NCBI GenBank assembly: GCA_013153605.1
Contig: JAADED010000035.1
Location: 1-36,954, forward strand
Source of the DNA: Chlorobiota bacterium
Lineage (GTDB): Bacteria; Bacteroidota; Bacteroidia; Flavobacteriales; Flavobacteriaceae
Reading direction: 5' to 3'
Length of the DNA: 36,954 nt
Shown here: piece by piece, positions 5,895 through 36,954 of the stretch
Layout of the letters: every line of letters begins with the position of its first letter
Position numbering within the stretch: position 1 is the first letter of the stretch
Translations under genes and position numbers: made by a program
Notes under the pieces: generated by a model
Told to the model about the DNA's origin: nothing
Database searches by the model: none
Seen by the model: only the letters and a program-made list of their open reading frames with translations

Positions 5895-6785
5895 TTATTT
5901 TTTCTTTGCCCGCGGATGGGCTGAGGCATATACGCGTTTGAGTTCGGCCAGTCCCGCATGGAGGTAATGTTGGGTGGCTGCCAGGCCTGCATGACCCAAC
6001 AGCTCCTTGATGGTGTGCAAATCGGCACCCCGGTTGAGGAGGTGGGTGGCAAAAGAGTGCCGCAACAGGTGGGGGCTGCGTTTTTCTTTGGCACTCACCG
6101 CCCCCAGGTGGCGGGATACCAGCCGATGGACGAATACGGGATACATTTTGCGGCCCTTGTCCGTGAGGAAAAAGGCCGGATGGGAGGGGCGCGGCCATTG
6201 TTTGTCCCGCGCTTCCTTATAGGCGCGCAAAGTGTCGGCCAAATCGGGAAGGAGGGGGATCAGCCGCTCTTTGTTACCCTTGCCGCGAATGCGGAGGCGC
6301 ATATTGTCCCAATCGACGGCGTCGTCGGTCAGGTCGATGAGTTCGGCCCGTCGCATGCCCGTGTCGTATAAAGTTTTGAGAACCGCCAGGTCGCGGAGGC
6401 CCGAAAAAGAGCGGTCGTAAGGTAGGGTGTCCAATAAAAGGCGGGTTTCCTTTTCGGAGAGGGGGACGCGTTGCTTTTTGGCGGTTTTGAGTCCCGGAAT
6501 GCCCGCGGCGGGATTGGAGGACAAAACGCCGGTTTTAATCAGGAATTTGTAAAAACTCCTCACCGCCGTCAGCTTCCGGTTCACCGAGCGGGGGTCCAAC
6601 CCTTCGGAAGAGAGGTACACCACCCATCGCCGGATGTCTTTGGGCCCGGCCTCCAACGGGGATTTGCCCCGCGCATGGCGCAAAAAACGGGTGAAGCTCT
6701 CCAAATCGCGCCGGTAGGCGTCGGCCGTCAGGGGAGAATAGTGGCGCTCTTTCAGCAAATATTCGATGAAACGATCAACTGCCAT
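5895..6785 (-). CDS. xerC: Tyrosine recombinase XerC/XerD family
   Basis: A 296-residue tyrosine recombinase. The N-terminal SAM-like core-binding domain spans about residues 1-95. The catalytic domain carries Arg145 (DTGMRRAEL), the GKGNKER lysine (172), HLLRH (His239, Arg242), GHAGL (His265) and the nucleophile Tyr274 in QHYLH. All catalytic residues are present and the length equals the Xer housekeeping enzymes, so chromosome dimer resolution at dif is the likely role rather than phage integration. Position beside rpsU and hpf supports the housekeeping reading. XerC and XerD cannot be separated confidently by eye. Its ATG sits directly after the rpsU terminator hairpin. Confidence 0.85.
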   Translation of the reverse strand: MAVDRFIEYLLKERHYSPLTADAYRRDLESFTRFLRHARGKSPLEAGPKDIRRWVVYLSSEGLDPRSVNRKLTAVRSFYKFLIKTGVLSSNPAAGIPGLKTAKKQRVPLSEKETRLLLDTLPYDRSFSGLRDLAVLKTLYDTGMRRAELIDLTDDAVDWDNMRLRIRGKGNKERLIPLLPDLADTLRAYKEARDKQWPRPSHPAFFLTDKGRKMYPVFVHRLVSRHLGAVSAKEKRSPHLLRHSFATHLLNRGADLHTIKELLGHAGLAATQHYLHAGLAELKRVYASAHPRAKKK

Positions 6786-7633: not shown

Positions 7634-7734
7634 CGGTTGGGGGTTAAAGGAAAGACCTTTTGTATCAATTATTAAAAAATCTTCGGAAACATATTCGTTT
7701 TCTTTCGAAGACGAACTTTCTTCCATAAACCATA

Positions 7735-7770
7735 GTTAAAATTATAGTTAAAATTAACGTTAACGTTAAA
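7735..7770. repeat. Hexanucleotide array 13 bp upstream of the czcA-like start
   Basis: Six consecutive hexamers read GTTAAA, ATTATA, GTTAAA, ATTAAC, GTTAAC and GTTAAA. The last ends 12 nt before the ATG at 7783, so it would lie in the promoter or 5' UTR. No TAnnTTTG box was seen in 7601-7782; otherwise this 182-bp gap holds only AT-rich sequence. Confidence 0.6.
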
Positions 7771-7782
7771 GTCCAAACAAAA

Positions 7783-10700
7783 ATGCTCGAAAAAATCATA
7801 TCCTACAGCGTCAGGCACAAACTGATCGTGTTGCTGTTGACGGCCGGTCTGGTGATTGCGGGTTTGTATGCCATGTTTCACATCCCGCTGGGAGCCGTGC
7901 CGGACATTACCAATAACCAAGTGCAAGTGATCACCACCACGCGCGACCTCTCGGCCGAAGACGTGGAGCAATTTATCACTTATCCCATCGAATTGGAGAT
8001 GAGCAATTTGCCGGGCATTCAAGAAATTCGCTCGGTATCCAAATTCGGCTTGTCGGTGGTGACCTTGGTATTCGAAGACCGCATGGGCACCTATTTGCCC
8101 CGCCAGCTTATTGCCGAAAAACTCCAGGGTTTGGGCGAAAAAATGCCCGCGGGCGTGGATCCGCCCCAAATGGGACCCATCACCACGGGGTTGGGCGAAA
8201 TTTACCAATACACCCTCGAAGTGGAACCCGAATACAAAGACCGCTACGATTTGATGACGCTCCGCACCATTCAGGATTGGATCGTCAAGCGGAACCTCTC
8301 GGGCATCCCGGGCGTGGTGGAAGTCAATACCTGGGGCGGAAAGCTCAAGCAATTCGAAGTGGCCCTGGACCCTCAAAAATTGCGCGCCCTCGGCGTGACG
8401 GTGGCCGAAGTGTACCGCGCACTCAAAGAAAATAACGGCATTGCCGGCGGAGGATATATCGAAAAAACCAATAAAACCTATTTTATCCGAAGCGACGGCT
8501 TGGTGCGCGACTTGGAAGATATCAAGCAAATCGTGGTGAAAAAAAACGGCGAAGTGCCCGTGTACATAAAGGATGTGGGTGAAGTGCGCTACGGCTATGC
8601 CACCCGCTTCGGTGCCATCACCGGAAACGGCGAAGGCGAAAAGGTCATGGGCCAAGTGATGATGCTCAAAGGGGCCAACGTGAGCGAGGTAATCAAAAAC
8701 GTGAAAAAACGGGTGGCCGAAATCTCCAAGTCCCTTCCCGAAGGGGTGTATATCAATCCCTTCCTGGAACGAACGGAATTGCTCAACAAAACCACCCTTA
8801 CCATTGCCGAAAACCTCATTTTGGGAAGTATCATCGTTACTTTGGTGGTGCTCCTCCTGTTGGGCAATTGGCGGTCGGCGCTGGTGATTGCTTCGGTGAT
8901 TCCCCTGTCGTTGCTGTTCGCCCTGACCATGATGTACATTTTCGGAATCGACGCCAACCTTATGAGTTTGGGTGCCATCGACTTCGGCATCATCATCGAC
9001 GGGGCGGTGATTATCGTGGAGTTCATCGCCTTCAAAGTGGCGCTCGAACGTGCCCGCCTACTCAAAAAGAACAAGGAGGACTTGCGTGAAGCATTGGACG
9101 AAATCACCATCCGCTCGGCATCCAAAATGATGCATTCGGCCGTTTTCGGCCAGCTCATCATTATCATCGTTTTCATACCCATTTTGGCTTTGCAAGGGGT
9201 GGAGGGAAAAATGTTCAAGCCCATGGCTCTGGTGTTCATTTTCGCCTTGATCGGCGTAATGATTTTGGGTCTCACTTATTTGCCCGTAATGTCGGCATTG
9301 GTGTTGAAACCCGAAGAAGAAGGTAAATCCAATTTTTCGAAAAAATTGTTGGCGGTGTTGACCAAGTGGTATGAGCCGATCGTGCGATTTGCATTGGCAC
9401 ACAAAAAATTGGTTTTGGGCGTAGCCACCGCCCTCTTGGCCGTCTCAATTTGGATTTTTACCACCTTGGGAGGCGAATTCGTGCCCACATTGGACGAAGG
9501 GGATTTCGTGATTCAACCGGTGCTTAAAACGGGTACGTCGCTTCAAAAAACCATCGAAACCACCACCAAAATCGAAAAAATTTTATTGGAATTTCCCGAA
9601 GTGGAACAAGTGGTAAGCCGGATCGGAGCCGCCGAGGTGCCCACCGACCCCATGTCCATGGAAGATGCGGACATTATTATCAAACTCAAACCCCGCAAGG
9701 AATGGGTGACCGCCGAAACCAAAGACGAACTGGCGGATAAATTTAAGGAAGCCCTCAGCGTATTGCCGGGAATCGAATACGAGTTTACCCAACCCATCGA
9801 AATGCGGTTCAATGAATTGATTTCTGGAACCCGTTCCGATGTGGCCGTAAAAATTTACGGCGAGGATTTAAATACGCTGAACGTGATTGCCCACAAAATC
9901 AAGCGTAAAATCAAAGACATTCCCGGTGCGGCCGATATTACGGTGGAAAAAGTGGCGGGCTTGCCCCAGATGAAAATCACCTTGTTGCGCGACCGGCTGG
10001 CCGCATACGGCATCAATGTGGAAGATGTGAACAAAGTGATTTCCGTGGCGTTGGGCGGATTGCCGGCGGGAGAGGTATTCGAAGGCGAAAAGCGGTTCGA
10101 CTTGGTGGCCCGCTTCGACCGGAGCAAGCGTCAAAATTTGGACGATTTGCGTCAAATTCCCGTCAACTTGCCCGACGGCCGTCAAATTCCGCTGGAAGAG
10201 GTGGCCCGTGTGGAGCTGGCCGAAGGGCCGGCCAAAATCTCGCGCGACGCCACCAAGCGGCGCATCAGCATCGGAGTGAACGTGCGCGACCGGGATTTGG
10301 AATCGGTGGTCAAAGACATTCAGGAAGTGATCGAGAAAGAAATCAAACTTCCGCCCGGTTACACCATTACGTACGGCGGCCAATTCGAAAATTTGCGATC
10401 GGCCAAGAAACGTCTCCTTTTGGTGGTGCCGGTGGCCCTTATTCTAATATTTATAATGTTGTATTTCGCTTTCGGGTCCGTCAAATTGGCCGCTCTGATT
10501 TATACGGCCATCCCTTTGGCCACCATCGGAGGTATTTGGGCCCTGTGGCTGCGGGATATGCCTTTCAGCATCTCGGCCGGCATCGGCTTTATCGCCCTGT
10601 TCGGCGTGGCGGTGCTCAACGGTATCGTCTTGATCGAACATTACAGGGAACTGCACGACAAATACGACGATATGACCGAGTTGATCATTCAAGGCTCCAA

Positions 10701-12120
10701 GGACAGAATGCGTCCCGTGTTATTGGCCGCTCTTGCGGCAATAGGCGGGTTTATCCCCATGGCCGTATCCCAATCGGCCGGTGCCGAAGTCCAAAGGCCG
10801 CTGGCCACCGTGGTGATCGGCGGTTTGTTTTCCGCCACCCTTTTGGCTTTGTTGGTGATCCCCGTGCTTTATGCTTGGTATGTGCGTCCTCCGCGTCGCA
10901 AGCGCCGCCGACTGGGCGGAGGTAAGGGAGCGGCGGCCGCGGTAGGCGTTTGGCTGGTGTTCCTTATGCCCGCCTGGGCCCAGGAAGGGCAATGGAACGC
11001 CTTTCTGGACAGCCTTCGCCAACGCAACCCCGATTTGCGGATGGCCGAAGCCTCCCTCCGGGCGGCCGAAGCACGTAAAGGATTGGTTTGGGAAACGGAA
11101 AAAACCGATATTTCGATGGAATCGGACCCCACCAATCCCGACCCGGCCAACGATTATCCGTACAAAACCTTTACGGTCGAACAGGGATTCAAATTTCCCT
11201 CTTGGTATGTGGCCCGAAAAAAGGAGGCCGACGCCGCCTACCGCCGGGCCGAAGCCGATTATACCCTTTCCGTTCGCCGCATCATGCGGGACGCCTCGCT
11301 GGCTTATTTCGCCTACCGCTATCATTCGGCTTTGGAAGATTTGCTCGTTCGTTTGGATTCCCTGTATGCCACGTTCGAGCGGGCGGCTTCACGGCGGTTC
11401 GAACTGGGCGAATCCAATCGATTGGAATACCTCAACGCACGGGCCAAGCGCAAGCGTATTGCATTGGAGCTCGAACAAGTCCGTGCCGCGTTGGATAAGG
11501 ATAAGCGGCTGTTGGCTCGTTATCTCGATTACGACGATCCCGGCCGGTTGGAATGGATCAAGGGCGATTTGGCTCCCCTATCGGGACAACCGGAACCCGA
11601 TGCGCAAATTTACCGCATCCGGGCCGAAGCGTCCGCCGCCAGTGCGCTTTACGGCTGGAAAGCGGCCCGCCGCAACCTGTTGCCCGATTGGTATGTGAGT
11701 TATTCCTACGGCAACAATTTTTTACCCGGACATTCCTCCTATACCGCTTATGCGGTGGGGTTGCGCATCCCTTTGTTGGACGGAAGTTCGCGCGCCCGCG
11801 CCCGAGAGGCCCGCTGGCAATACGAAGAAGCGCAAACGGCCGCCGGCGTGCAGGTGCGGCAAGCGGAAACCGCCTTGGCAGGAATCCGGCGCGATTGGGA
11901 ATGGTGGGAAGCCAAATTGAACTATTACCGACGTGAAGGCAACGACATGGCCCGCCAATTATACGATACCGCCCGCAAAGCGTGGGAAGCGGGAGAAATC
12001 GATTATTTGCACTACGTGCAAACTTTGGAAAACGCCATGGATATCGAAAAAGGATATCTCGAGGCGGTCAAAGGATATAACGAGGCCCTGGTTCGCCTCC
12101 GCTTTTTTGTGATCGATTAA
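7783..12120 (+). CDS. czcA: CzcA-family heavy-metal RND transporter fused to a TolC/CzcC-type outer membrane factor
   Basis: A 1445-residue fusion. Residues 1 to about 1040 are a complete HME-RND inner membrane pump: periplasmic loops, twelve membrane segments and, in TM4, GAIDFGIIIDGAVIIVE with D400, D406 and E413. That signature corresponds to the CzcA proton-relay residues and favours Zn/Co/Cd over Cu/Ag. After the last TM, a basic stretch (KRRRLGGGK), a hydrophobic stretch (AAAAVGVWLVFLMP) and AWA|Q at 1066/1067 look like an internal signal peptide. Residues 1067-1445 are an OEP/TolC-type helical protein (LGESNRLEYLNARAKRKR, LRIPLLDGSSRAR, a coiled-coil tail ending LVRLRFFVID). CzcA-TolC fusions are known in Bacteroidota. 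The adaptor gene follows after 28 nt, so one transcript would encode the whole tripartite pump. Confidence 0.92.
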   Translation: MLEKIISYSVRHKLIVLLLTAGLVIAGLYAMFHIPLGAVPDITNNQVQVITTTRDLSAEDVEQFITYPIELEMSNLPGIQEIRSVSKFGLSVVTLVFEDRMGTYLPRQLIAEKLQGLGEKMPAGVDPPQMGPITTGLGEIYQYTLEVEPEYKDRYDLMTLRTIQDWIVKRNLSGIPGVVEVNTWGGKLKQFEVALDPQKLRALGVTVAEVYRALKENNGIAGGGYIEKTNKTYFIRSDGLVRDLEDIKQIVVKKNGEVPVYIKDVGEVRYGYATRFGAITGNGEGEKVMGQVMMLKGANVSEVIKNVKKRVAEISKSLPEGVYINPFLERTELLNKTTLTIAENLILGSIIVTLVVLLLLGNWRSALVIASVIPLSLLFALTMMYIFGIDANLMSLGAIDFGIIIDGAVIIVEFIAFKVALERARLLKKNKEDLREALDEITIRSASKMMHSAVFGQLIIIIVFIPILALQGVEGKMFKPMALVFIFALIGVMILGLTYLPVMSALVLKPEEEGKSNFSKKLLAVLTKWYEPIVRFALAHKKLVLGVATALLAVSIWIFTTLGGEFVPTLDEGDFVIQPVLKTGTSLQKTIETTTKIEKILLEFPEVEQVVSRIGAAEVPTDPMSMEDADIIIKLKPRKEWVTAETKDELADKFKEALSVLPGIEYEFTQPIEMRFNELISGTRSDVAVKIYGEDLNTLNVIAHKIKRKIKDIPGAADITVEKVAGLPQMKITLLRDRLAAYGINVEDVNKVISVALGGLPAGEVFEGEKRFDLVARFDRSKRQNLDDLRQIPVNLPDGRQIPLEEVARVELAEGPAKISRDATKRRISIGVNVRDRDLESVVKDIQEVIEKEIKLPPGYTITYGGQFENLRSAKKRLLLVVPVALILIFIMLYFAFGSVKLAALIYTAIPLATIGGIWALWLRDMPFSISAGIGFIALFGVAVLNGIVLIEHYRELHDKYDDMTELIIQGSKDRMRPVLLAALAAIGGFIPMAVSQSAGAEVQRPLATVVIGGLFSATLLALLVIPVLYAWYVRPPRRKRRRLGGGKGAAAAVGVWLVFLMPAWAQEGQWNAFLDSLRQRNPDLRMAEASLRAAEARKGLVWETEKTDISMESDPTNPDPANDYPYKTFTVEQGFKFPSWYVARKKEADAAYRRAEADYTLSVRRIMRDASLAYFAYRYHSALEDLLVRLDSLYATFERAASRRFELGESNRLEYLNARAKRKRIALELEQVRAALDKDKRLLARYLDYDDPGRLEWIKGDLAPLSGQPEPDAQIYRIRAEASAASALYGWKAARRNLLPDWYVSYSYGNNFLPGHSSYTAYAVGLRIPLLDGSSRARAREARWQYEEAQTAAGVQVRQAETALAGIRRDWEWWEAKLNYYRREGNDMARQLYDTARKAWEAGEIDYLHYVQTLENAMDIEKGYLEAVKGYNEALVRLRFFVID

Positions 12121-32656: not shown

Positions 32657-34681
32657 TTATCGGTTCAATTTTTCTTCCAACCGCCGCATGCGTTCCTTGA
32701 GGGCGCGGATTTCTTCCCGCTGGGCTTGGATGAGTTTTTGTTGTTCTTGCATGGCGGCCGTCAGGATGGGGATCAGTTCGGAGTAGTGCACCGTCCACAA
32801 TTCCCTTTGTTCGTTTTTCGGTTTGTGCACCGCTTCGGGCACTACTTTATAGAGGTCTTGGGCCAGAAATCCGTAACTGCGTTCGCCGTCTTCCGATATT
32901 TCGAAACCTCGAATTTCTCCCGTTTCCTTATCCTCCACAAAACGGGTATTGTGTTGGAAATATCCCACCGGACGGAGGAGACTCAATTTCTCCAGCGCAT
33001 TTTCCACCGGACGGATGTCCGATTTGATGCGGGCGTCGGAGTATTCCACCCATTCGCGAGCGGCGCCTTTGCCTATTTGCGCGTTGTCGTCATTGGCAAG
33101 CGTGAGGGCATAATCCACATTAGAGGTATTGATGGACACTTGCCCCCTTTGATTGGTAAAGAACCTGACCGTCCCTCCGTCGGCATTCATATAAAGGGTG
33201 GCGGCCGCATCATTGTTCATGGAAATGATTTCGTTGTTGTCGATTTCCAAATGTTGGCCGTCCAGCGATCCGATTACCAAATCGGCGGGATTGTCGAGGG
33301 AATTGGCTCCCCCGTCGATGCCTCCGGTAAGCTGGAGGAATCCTTGGGCCACCAGAACCCGTCCCGGTTCGTGGTTGAAATACACCACTTCGCCCCCGTC
33401 GATTTGAAGGTAGAGTGTCGAGGGAGTGCCGGCATCGTCCATGGCGATGATTTCGTTGTTGTCGATTTCCAAATGGAGGCTGTCGGTTTCGCCGATGATC
33501 AAGGAGGCGTAGGGCGCGGCGCTGTTGGTACCCGCATCGAAATCGCCCCGGATTTGCAAATATCCTTTATTGATGTCCACATATCCTGTGTCCAAGTCGA
33601 AGAAAAGCACTTTTCCTCCGTCGGCTTGGATGCCCAGGGTGCCGGCCGTTTCGGCATCGGAGAGGGCTTCGATTTCGTTGTCGTCCAATTCCAGGTGCAA
33701 ACCGTCGGCGGGACCGATGCGCAAGTCGCCGTATTTATCGGAGTTCAGGCCCGCATCATAATGGTGAACGATTTCGATGGAAGCGTCGCCGTAAATTTTC
33801 ATGGCCGTAAGCCCGTCGTCCCATACACCCGATTGGAGGGCGGTGATGAAGGAAATGGCCGTGTCGTCGGCATTGCGGTTGTCGGCCAGGATCAACACTT
33901 GCTCGGATTCCTGGGTGAGGTCGCTTCCGTTGTCGATAGCATCCATCAAGGCCAAATATCCGTGTTCGCCTCCCGATACCGCGGTGAGCCCGTCACCGGA
34001 AAGGATCACCAGGTTGCCCGTGGTGCGGTTGGTGTCGGCATAATATTGCACCATGGGATGACGGGCCGGCGATACGCCTCCCAAGAGGCGGCCTTTGGAG
34101 AGGTCGGCTTCGCCCGAGAATCCGAATTTGGATTGATTGAAATATACCGCTCCGCCGAAGGCGTTCACATACAAAGCGGCTGCCTCGCCGTCATTGACCA
34201 CTTGGATTTCGTTGGCATCCAAAAACATTTTGGTGCCCGTATCCGGGGCGGCGTTGTTTTCGAAAGCAATGCCTCCGTTTTCGGCGTCGGTGGTTCCGCC
34301 CACGTCGCCCAGTCCCGACACGGTGAATTTATGCAAGGGTTCGGAAGTGCCTATGCCTACATTTCCCGTAGGTAGGCTGTACATATCGTCGCCCGACACT
34401 TTCCAATCTCCGTCGTTTTTGCCGAAAGGCAACCATTGCGTGCCGTCGTAATAATAAAATTGATTGTCGTCGGTGACGAATACCGTCAATCCCGTCGAGG
34501 GAGAACCTCCGGCAATGGCATCCCGTTGGGCGGCCGTCATGCGGGGTATGAGCACGCCCCGTTCGGTGGATACCACGTCCAACATGGCGTCGTCGGCCGG
34601 CGCGTTGCCGGAATCGTTTACGGCCACTTGGCTCCAGCTCCATAGCGGCCAGAGAAGCAAAAGAAGGGGTAGTTTTTTCAT
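32657..34681 (-). CDS. Secreted tail-fibre-like protein with C-terminal peptidase S74 (intramolecular chaperone) domain
   Basis: A 674-residue exported protein with a signal peptide (MKKLPLLLLLWPLWSWSQ). The N-terminal part has a surface-protein pattern seen widely in Bacteroidota (LDVVSTERGVLIPRMTAAQR, FYYYDGTQWLPFG, GNVGIGTSEP). The middle has about four repeats of roughly 70 residues built on HLEIDNNEI followed by LYxxxDGGxVxFF. The end is an S74 / endosialidase-type chaperone domain: YSDARIKSDIRP supplies the Ser548-Lys553 pair used for self-cleavage in phage tail spikes, then RSYGFLAQDLYKVVPEAV, HYSELIPILTAAM and a trimerising coiled coil. No phage genes are nearby, so this is likely a cell-surface trimeric fibre. 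I chose the ATG at 34681 for its signal peptide. Confidence 0.82.
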   Translation of the reverse strand: MKKLPLLLLLWPLWSWSQVAVNDSGNAPADDAMLDVVSTERGVLIPRMTAAQRDAIAGGSPSTGLTVFVTDDNQFYYYDGTQWLPFGKNDGDWKVSGDDMYSLPTGNVGIGTSEPLHKFTVSGLGDVGGTTDAENGGIAFENNAAPDTGTKMFLDANEIQVVNDGEAAALYVNAFGGAVYFNQSKFGFSGEADLSKGRLLGGVSPARHPMVQYYADTNRTTGNLVILSGDGLTAVSGGEHGYLALMDAIDNGSDLTQESEQVLILADNRNADDTAISFITALQSGVWDDGLTAMKIYGDASIEIVHHYDAGLNSDKYGDLRIGPADGLHLELDDNEIEALSDAETAGTLGIQADGGKVLFFDLDTGYVDINKGYLQIRGDFDAGTNSAAPYASLIIGETDSLHLEIDNNEIIAMDDAGTPSTLYLQIDGGEVVYFNHEPGRVLVAQGFLQLTGGIDGGANSLDNPADLVIGSLDGQHLEIDNNEIISMNNDAAATLYMNADGGTVRFFTNQRGQVSINTSNVDYALTLANDDNAQIGKGAAREWVEYSDARIKSDIRPVENALEKLSLLRPVGYFQHNTRFVEDKETGEIRGFEISEDGERSYGFLAQDLYKVVPEAVHKPKNEQRELWTVHYSELIPILTAAMQEQQKLIQAQREEIRALKERMRRLEEKLNR

Positions 34682-34721
34682 AAATGGTAAAATTTTAAAT
34701 AAGGAACAACATTTTGATGGA

Positions 34722-34729
34722 CAAAGATA
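34722..34729 (-). promoter_or_regulatory. -7 box for the S74 protein gene
   Basis: On the minus strand TATCTTTG is a perfect TAnnTTTG, 40 nt before the ATG at 34681, supporting that start over a longer one. The rest of the 282-bp gap up to 34963 is AT-rich and shows no other clear signal. Confidence 0.55.
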
Positions 34730-34963
34730 TGGCAAAATTTCGGGGAAAAAATGCGGAGTTTTCAACAAAGATTGTTATAAACGGATGATTTTCAAAAAAA
34801 TCAAGTTTCTCCTTGATAAATTTTTTAAAACTTTTTATTTGGCAAACTATTTTAACATAAATTCGGAATCGAAAGGATTTTATTCCTTCCCGGAAATTTC
34901 TCCTTTGTCGGGGTAAAGAAGCGGGAATTATCGTAAATTGGATAACAAAAAAAATATTCGGAT

Positions 34964-36148
34964 ATGAAAGACGATCTCTTTCGCGGCCGGCGTACGGCCG
35001 AAGTCCATGCGGGCGATATCAAAGACCAATTCGGCAGTGTGGTTACGCCCATTTATCAAACTTCCACTTTCGAATTTCGCGATGCGGATCACGGTGCCCG
35101 CCTGTTTGCGGGAGAAGAAGACGGATTTATTTACACCCGAATCGGCAATCCCACCGTGACTTCGTTGGAGAAAAAATTGGCGGCTCTCGAAAACGGGTAC
35201 GATGCCATCGGATTCGCATCGGGCATGGGGGCGGTATCGGCCCTGTTCGCTTATTTCCTGGGGCAGGGAGACCATATCATCAGCACGGATGCGGTGTACG
35301 GCCCGTCGCGGGGAATTTTGGAAACTTATTTTAAAAAATTCGGAGTGCAAGCGGATTTTATCGATACATCCGATCCCTTTAAGGTGGAAGAATACATCCG
35401 TCCCAATACCAAATTAATTTACATAGAAACCCCCACCAACCCCACCATTAAGCTCACCGATATCGAACAAGTGGCTTCCATCGCCCATCCGTACGGAATA
35501 CCCGTGGCGGTGGACAATACCTTCTCTTCGCCCGTGTTGCAAAATCCGTTGGACCTGGGGGCGGATATCGTTTTGCATTCGCTTACCAAGTTTGTGAACG
35601 GCCATGCCGACGCGGTGGGCGGAGCCTTGATTACCAAAGACGATACGCATTACAAGGGCTTGCGCAAAACCATGGCTTATTTCGGCGCCAATATGGACCC
35701 GCATCAGGCGTATTTGGTTTATCGGGGAGCCAAAACCTTGAGCCTCCGCGTGCTCAAAGCCCAGGAAAATGCCGGAATCGTGGCCGAATTCCTGGAGCAA
35801 CATCCCAAAATCGGATGGGTGAAATATCCCGGCTTGAAATCGCATCCCCAATACGATCTGGCTCAAAAACAAATGAGAGGCCCGGGAGCCATGATGAGCT
35901 TCGGCGTCAAAGGGGGATTGGAAGCGGGTAAACGGCTGATGAACAATGTGAAGTTGGCCAAATTGGCGGTATCTTTGGGCGGTGTGGAAACCCTCATTCA
36001 ACATCCCGCCTCCATGACCCATGCGGGTATGAGCGAAGAAGCCCGACTGGCCGCCGGCATCACGCCCGATTTAGTGCGCTTTTCGGTAGGGATCGAAGAC
36101 GTGGAAGACATCATCGCCGATTTGGAGCAAGCGTTGGAGAAAATTTAA
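34964..36148 (+). CDS. Cys/Met-metabolism PLP-dependent enzyme (trans-sulfuration family)
   Basis: A 394-residue fold-type I PLP enzyme of the cystathionine gamma-synthase / gamma-lyase / methionine gamma-lyase group. Family motifs: EVHAGDIKDQFGSVVTPIYQ, YTRIGNPT, FASGMGA, VDNTFSSPVLQNP, and HSLTKFVNGHAD with the Schiff-base Lys209. Tyr112 in DAVYGPS is the conserved catalytic tyrosine, but the cysteine that methionine gamma-lyases carry two positions later is proline here, so gamma-lyase on methionine is less certain. Cystathionine gamma-lyase/synthase or a sulfhydrylase remain possible. It appears monocistronic. Confidence 0.87.
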   Translation: MKDDLFRGRRTAEVHAGDIKDQFGSVVTPIYQTSTFEFRDADHGARLFAGEEDGFIYTRIGNPTVTSLEKKLAALENGYDAIGFASGMGAVSALFAYFLGQGDHIISTDAVYGPSRGILETYFKKFGVQADFIDTSDPFKVEEYIRPNTKLIYIETPTNPTIKLTDIEQVASIAHPYGIPVAVDNTFSSPVLQNPLDLGADIVLHSLTKFVNGHADAVGGALITKDDTHYKGLRKTMAYFGANMDPHQAYLVYRGAKTLSLRVLKAQENAGIVAEFLEQHPKIGWVKYPGLKSHPQYDLAQKQMRGPGAMMSFGVKGGLEAGKRLMNNVKLAKLAVSLGGVETLIQHPASMTHAGMSEEARLAAGITPDLVRFSVGIEDVEDIIADLEQALEKI

Positions 36149-36182
36149 ATCCCCGGTGAAAATTTCCTAAAAGGGATTTTTT
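36147..36182 (+). terminator. Possible terminator after the PLP enzyme gene
   Basis: AAATCCC and GGGATTT pair over 7 bp with a loop of about 19 nt, followed by TTTT. The left arm overlaps the stop codon. The long loop makes this a moderate call. Confidence 0.4.
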
Positions 36183-36218
36183 GCCTCCGGCTTTTTTTCA
36201 ACGAATAATTTTTTAGTG

Positions 36219-36286
36219 GATTAGTGAGGTAATGATTTAGTGAAAGTTAATTTTTTAATTGATTAGTGAGGTAGTGATTTAGTGAA
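36219..36286. repeat. 26-bp direct repeat, two copies
   Basis: The first copy (36219-36244) and second copy (36261-36286) differ at one position. Each starts GATTAGTGAGGTA and ends GATTTAGTGAA, itself made of degenerate TTAGTGA heptamers. They are separated by 16 bp of AT-rich sequence. Confidence 0.8.
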
Positions 36287-36467
36287 TGAGTGTGATGGAA
36301 GGGTGATGCATTGCGGTTCGGTTATGATTGAATTTATACCGTAAAGATGAAAGGTCGCGATGCGAAATATGAAACCCTAAAGTAAAACCTGGGGATGAAA
36401 TGATCGAAATCTTTAAGGCGGTTTTATTTAAATGAAGATTTTAGCCCCGAGGACGGTACTCCACCAT

Positions 36468-36578
36468 CATTCTCAGTGAAGCGAGCGAGGAATCTCGGAA
36501 AGGACTTTTACTTTGACATTTACTTTGACCAGATAAAATCGATTGAGATTCTTCCTCCCTTCGGTCGTCAGAATGACA
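36468..36578. repeat. Composite inverted-repeat element, copy 1
   Basis: Left arm 36468-36496 ends GAGGAATCTC; right arm 36545-36578 begins GAGATTCTTCC and ends GAATGACA. The 48-bp spacer contains four hexamers (TTTTAC, TTTGAC, ATTTAC, TTTGAC) at 36506-36529. This copy is the most diverged. Confidence 0.7.
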
Positions 36579-36583
36579 ATTCC

Positions 36584-36697
36584 GTGTCATGCCGAGGGAA
36601 GCGAAGCGACGAGGAATCTCGGAAAGGAATTTTACTTTGAGGTTTACCTTTACTAAATAAAATGAATCGAGATTCCTCACATGCGTTCGGAATGACA
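36584..36697. repeat. Composite inverted-repeat element, copy 2
   Basis: Left arm 36584-36620 begins GTGTCATGCCGAGGGAAGCG and ends GAGGAATCTC; right arm 36669-36697 begins GAGATTCCTC and ends TTCGGAATGACA. Inner ends pair perfectly over 10 bp and outer ends over 10 of 11. The 48-bp spacer has the hexamers TTTTAC, TTTGAG, GTTTAC and CTTTAC (36630-36653). Confidence 0.8.
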
Positions 36698-36741
36698 AAT
36701 CCCTCTCATTCCCGGAAAAATGCATGGGCAAGGAATTGGCG

Positions 36742-36860
36742 GTGTCATGCCGAGGGAAGCGACGCAAGGAGCGACGAGGCATCTCAAAAGAACTTTAACC
36801 TTAACGTTTACGTTTACTGAATGAAATGATTGAGATTCCTCACATTCGTTCGGAATGACA
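36742..36860. repeat. Composite inverted-repeat element, copy 3
   Basis: Left arm 36742-36785 begins GTGTCATGCCGAGGGAAGCG and carries an extra ACGCAAGGAGCG insertion; right arm 36832-36860 begins GAGATTCCTC and ends TTCGGAATGACA. The 46-bp spacer has the hexamers TTTAAC, CTTAAC, GTTTAC and GTTTAC (36794-36817). Confidence 0.8.
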
Positions 36861-36886
36861 AACTACTATAATAAAAACGGTAGTAA

Positions 36887-36909
36887 GCTAATGGCGAAGG
36901 GCTAACGGC
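36887..36909 (+). repeat. GCTAAnGGC direct repeat
   Basis: GCTAATGGC (36887-36895) and GCTAACGGC (36901-36909) lie 5 bp apart, followed by TAAAAGC. Similar GCTAA/GGC strings are seen between genes in other Bacteroidota, from memory. Confidence 0.4.
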
Positions 36910-36925
36910 TAAAAGCTTTTTCTTT

Positions 36926-36954
36926 GAGATTCCTCACATGCGTTCGGAATGACA
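36926..36954. repeat. Right arm of a fourth composite element, at the window edge
   Basis: This 29-bp sequence is identical to the right arm of copy 2 (36669-36697), including CACATGCGTTCGG. No matching left arm precedes it within the usual distance, so it is either a solo arm or the start of another arrangement continuing past the window. Confidence 0.75.

Follow-up and report, generated by a model that had tools for sequence, protein, structure and literature searches.

The last ~490 bases of the window, the whole stretch of 36,954 nucleotides analysed here, carry a cluster of small non-coding repeats that is probably a BIME-like mosaic array of CGTC-type REP dimers enclosing a separate hexamer repeat, now passive or mobilised by an enzyme. 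The basic unit of this array is a short hairpin in which a TGTC/CGTC tag precedes an ATTCC/GGAAT stem with a variable loop, and CTC forms the tail. These units are paired head to head, tags outward, like those of the CGTC superfamily. In this species, the dimer encloses a block of about four CNTTDA hexamers, which stands in place of the 10-25 bp spacers prevailing in its sister species or of the spacers found in Hymenobacter and Flavobacterium.

Organization of the array and its copies in the genome

The window is contig C84 of a draft genome of 97 contigs and 1.62 Mb, ~96% complete. The cluster consists of three elements and one solitary right arm. In each element, the left arm spans ~30-43 nt and the right arm 29-34 nt, on either side of a 46-48 nt spacer, for a total of 111-118 bp. 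Each arm runs from a TGTC tag through the two matching halves of a five-base stem, separated by a variable loop, to a CTC tail. The features are as follows:

36467-36578, plus strand: element 1 (left arm 36467-36496, spacer 36497-36544, right arm 36545-36578)
36505-36528, plus strand: hexamers of element 1 within the spacer, CTTTTA CTTTGA CATTTA CTTTGA
36585-36697, plus strand: element 2 (left arm 36585-36620, spacer 36621-36668, right arm 36669-36697)
36629-36652, plus strand: hexamers of element 2, ATTTTA CTTTGA GGTTTA CCTTTA, two of them diverged, assigned from sequence and alignment
36743-36860, plus strand: element 3 (left arm 36743-36785 with an ATGCC/GGCAT stem, spacer 36786-36831, right arm 36832-36860)
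36793-36816, plus strand: hexamers of element 3 within the spacer, CTTTAA CCTTAA CGTTTA CGTTTA
36864-36954, no strand: assembly fork, 91 nt found again without a mismatch where contig C88 starts and where contig C80 ends
36926-36954, plus strand: fourth right arm, at the contig end
7754-7771, minus strand: hexamer repeat not included in a dimer, shortly before the ORF starting at 7783

The original prediction of three elements plus a right arm at the edge, with spacers of 46-48 bp, is borne out, the spacers of elements 1, 2 and 3 being 48, 48 and 46 bp long, and the run of four hexamers is kept in all three elements. The exact junctions GAGGAATCTC...GAGATTCCTC, which had been described as common to the elements, are confined to element 2. 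Element 3 carries GAGGCATCTC. The left arm of element 1 is truncated (CATTCTCAG...) and lacks the TG of the tag, and its right arm is of the ATTCT/AGAAT type (GAGATTCTTCCTCCCTTCGGTCGTCAGAATGACA), unlike that of element 2. The cluster stops at position 36954, the contig end, where the assembly fork cuts the array. The array runs on beyond the window, since the last 91 nt of the contig recur exactly where C88 begins and, in reverse complement, where C80 ends. A 42-bp tandem repeat (1.9 copies, GATTAGTGAGGTAATGATTTAGTGAA type) is found at 36206-36286, between the gene of a Cys/Met enzyme and the array.

Genome-wide, ten full elements were identified in five intergenic clusters (three each on C84 and C42, two on C26, and one each on C88 and C7). 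A search with the tag-end pattern, allowing up to one mismatch, yielded 29 matches in the genome versus 3 for the reversed control pattern; element copies thus exceed chance. Solitary arms are common: they occur inside the five clusters and on eight further contigs, many of them at the end of a contig. Because repeats of this kind break assemblies, the true copy number may be higher than counted. With ten copies in five clusters, the whole element has spread, either by itself or as part of longer segments. Different clusters also share linker sequences located outside the dimers.

Pairing within arms and independence of the hexamer block

The tag takes the form (T/C)GTC, with TGTC in nine of the ten dimers of this genome and CGTC in the Hymenobacter copies. 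Three stem variants were found, ATTCC/GGAAT, ATGCC/GGCAT and ATTCT/AGAAT; the AT...AT at the stem foot is invariant, giving the stem a complementary A-T start. In the ten dimers, the left and right arms are often different variants, and such mixed dimers offer a clean test of which pairing is maintained. Within arms, the stem pairs in 99% of cells, with 8 doubly changed (compensatory) cells and none of 500 shuffles as good, the covariation events being few since the copies are related. Between arms, pairing extends to 86% of cells, with no excess over shuffles. At three variable bases, complementary arms were counted in 17/19 cases in this genome (6.7 expected) and in 35/38 across the genus (20.2 expected). 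As judged from these sequence comparisons, each arm is maintained as its own hairpin. Covariation within but not between arms argues that the element is a head-to-head REP dimer rather than one designed long hairpin. Folded alone, the left arms are no more stable than shuffles, which weakens the argument for separate hairpins. In the genome G005 (L156, L307-L313), the arm loops hold nested palindromes such as TTCCGGCGCATGCCGGAA between the common tag and tail.

The idea that whole elements fold as long hairpins was upheld as far as thermodynamics is concerned, as they fold better than shuffles (z from -2.9 to -4.7). We rejected it as a maintained structure, given the lack of covariation between the arms. 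The strong fold arises because the element contains two inverted copies of one family.

The hexamers conform to the consensus CNTTDA, most often in four units. Searching for at least three units, with overlapping matches counted separately, we obtained 39 pattern matches in this genome, 99 in G002, 39 in G004, 3 in G001 and 1 in G006; four further species of the genus had none, and almost all other genera had 0-1. The repeat is therefore abundant in three of the nine species of the genus examined and almost absent outside it. Four units were found in 45 of the 77 arrays examined, allowing single mismatches at the ends, and 67 of 68 arrays checked are intergenic according to mechanical ORF calls. 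The hexamers occur in many different contexts, mostly outside the dimers. The hexamer block is thus an independent intergenic repeat of the genus and not specific to the element, contrary to the initial view of the hexamer-bearing spacer as the unusual part of the element. As the hexamers are independent of the dimers, the composite is a mosaic of two repeat families.

In this genome, G001 and G004, the hexamer block can come 7-9 nt after the CTC end of an arm; in G002, it is more often found ahead of a tag. The junction of arm and hexamers occurs in three species and probably predates the one studied here. We also considered whether the CTC side of the arm is invariably the one that bears short tandem repeats. 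This holds in the genome under study, with periodicity scores of 5.2 inside and 2.7 outside, but fails across the genus (2.9 versus 3.4).

The hexamer copy on the minus strand near position 7783 is part of a hexamer/dodecamer run of the same repeat family at 7734-7772, ~10 nt before the ATG at 7783. The ORF that follows (7783-12117, 1445 aa) combines an RND efflux pump (PF00873) and an outer-membrane efflux domain (PF02321) in one protein. In G004 and G006, several hexamer copies likewise precede an ORF start by 8-16 nt and are oriented relative to it as at 7783.

Distribution of the arms and possible modes of spread

Facing arms 36-60 bp apart were detected in at least 120 stretches of species genomes. 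Among the matches listed, these are mostly from Hymenobacter and Flavobacterium, with other hosts including Prevotellaceae, Chloroflexi, WOR-3, Hydrogenedentota and Verrucomicrobia, among others. A small number of the less frequent facing-arm matches are devoid of the tag and may be due to chance. Arms paired at this spacing are thus found elsewhere, in many Bacteroidota and in some other phyla, and the assignment of the arms to REP-like intergenic repeats of a kind widespread in bacteria is supported. The spacers are lineage-specific, with palindromic GCGTGCTGACG... in Hymenobacter and CGCAAGTAGCTC... in Flavobacterium, and in sister species of the genus they are 10-25 bp long in 30 of 33 dimers. 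A related genus has the arm sequence seen in Flavobacterium, from which Flavobacteriaceae is the probable family of the genome under study. Single arms also match 85 stretches of contigs classed as viral (L192-L276), some of them in several copies; these contigs may be true phages or misfiled host DNA.

The family was probably founded by an enzyme acting on the arm hairpins that is now absent from the genome or undetected in it. In the past, a REP-type enzyme would have processed the arms in trans, as single-strand hairpins. With this enzyme missing or undetected, recent growth would have proceeded by recombination and duplication among the repeats. The linkers common to several clusters point to the duplication of array segments, and the present growth of the array is likely to occur mostly by recombination among repeats, a step for which the common linkers are the single line of evidence. 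Any effect on mRNA ends or DNA structure would be a by-product. As for the locus itself, the array is absent downstream of the Cys/Met enzyme gene at the orthologous position in G004, G002 and G006, where the next gene differs too, so that this is not a clean empty site. As candidate transposases, we listed 39 arm-flanked ORF regions, judged from their translation starts alone; several are duplicated and many are on viral contigs.

A modest chance is left to a related scenario, in which the (T/C)GTC REP dimers of the genus are spread by a non-Y1 enzyme and carry an independent hexamer block, mostly of four units, that is itself a distinct small repeat or a protein-binding array.

It appears unlikely that the dimers are active REPINs, mobilised whole by a RAYT, a Y1 tyrosine transposase, in the way put forward for Pseudomonas. 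Head-to-head dimers and the absence of target-site duplications fit this mode of spread, and so does the distribution of Y1 genes in a survey of the phylum. In this survey, 51 of 296 genomes have arms, and Y1 genes are present in 44 of these 51 genomes versus 163 of the 245 others (p 0.004). This association may stem from genome size, common ancestry or a role in the past, and in view of it a RAYT may have been involved. However, seven of the 51 arm-bearing genomes have no Y1 match, including G086, G257 and G273, which are 99-100% complete. Likewise, the REP-associated tyrosine transposase that the original prediction had proposed to look for was not detected: a PF01797 search, positive in five control genomes, retrieved no Y1 transposase from the genome under study or from seven of eight relatives, keeping in mind that the gene may be missing from a fragmented draft assembly at 96% completeness. 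A minus-strand tyrosine recombinase ORF of the XerC/XerD type (5895-6785; PF00589, PF02899) is present in the window, with no link to the repeats here.

A functional RNA, with a hairpin pair at transcript 3' ends, or an array of protein-bound hexamers is rather improbable. The good fold of whole elements, the predominance of four hexamers and the intergenic location of nearly all hexamer arrays would suit such roles, but the arms do not covary with each other, the hexamers occur in many different contexts, and the orthologous position in G002, G004 and G006 is devoid of the array. Moreover, an Rfam search over 34000-36954 gave no match at E up to 1, and a terminator scan revealed no terminator-like site. 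That the arms are the terminal inverted repeats of a MITE, one of the options in the original prediction, moved by the DDE transposase of a full-length relative, is highly improbable, because, even though inverted repeats do bound a 111-118 bp non-coding multi-copy element and the inverted symmetry often reaches a few bases past GTCAT, target-site duplications of at least four bases are not in excess (12 of 185 dimers versus about 13 expected), solitary arms are common and covariation is found inside the arms and not between them.

Relation to described repeats

The reading of the cluster as an array of CGTC-type REP dimers can be compared with published families. CGTC REPs have a CGTC or TGTC tag outside the stem, a complementary AT at the stem foot, a stem of 8-9 pairs, a loop of 4-5 and usually a CCA tail; they form head-to-head dimers with spacers of 20-100 bp, Bacteroidetes are among the phyla in which they were reported, and no dedicated transposase is known for them (Di Nocera et al. 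2013, PMC3733652). The arms described here share with them the tag, the AT stem foot, the head-to-head dimers (with spacers of 46-48 bp in this genome) and the absence of a dedicated transposase. They differ in having five outer pairs with a longer variable loop, a CTC rather than CCA tail, and a spacer that contains an independent hexamer repeat. Given the differences in stem length and tail, they are placed beside the four published CGTC families as a related variant rather than within one of them. The hairpin pairs are thus a lineage-specific form of a kind of repeat known from many bacteria. The literature leaves open which agent moves CGTC-type REPs (PMC3733652), a question to which this genus of small genomes is well suited, with abundant arms, heterodimers that reveal the maintained pairing, and most species without a detected Y1 gene.

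The likeness to enterobacterial BIMEs is in architecture: both are intergenic clusters of facing REPs with conserved extra motifs, and here five mosaic clusters with common linkers and solitary arms were found. Unlike for BIMEs, a REP transposase gene was not detected in this genome. REPINs with their RAYT (PMC3116915) similarly consist of an inverted pair of REP-like sequences of about 110 bp in several copies, but their tag is GTAG instead of TGTC, and the Y1 transposase was not found in the genome under study. The hexamer repeat demonstrates that what lies between the arms of a REP dimer may belong to another repeat family, so that such an element needs dissecting before being called a unit.

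A literature search for the arm sequence, similar Bacteroidetes repeats and STRR-like repeats, mostly limited to papers outside subscription, found no earlier description. The short tandemly repeated sequences (STRR) of cyanobacteria are short-period tandem blocks in intergenic DNA. Compared by description, the hexamer block is likewise a short-period intergenic tandem, with a period of six and mostly four units. Heptamer runs (TTAGCCG, GGATTTA) and octamer runs (GTTAAATC) are also recurrent in the genus. In the genome under study, solitary ATGCC/GGCAT arms on C11, C87, C49, C94, C61, C17 and C39 (L317-L323) are followed by octamer runs (AGTGAAAG type) and then by other palindromes.
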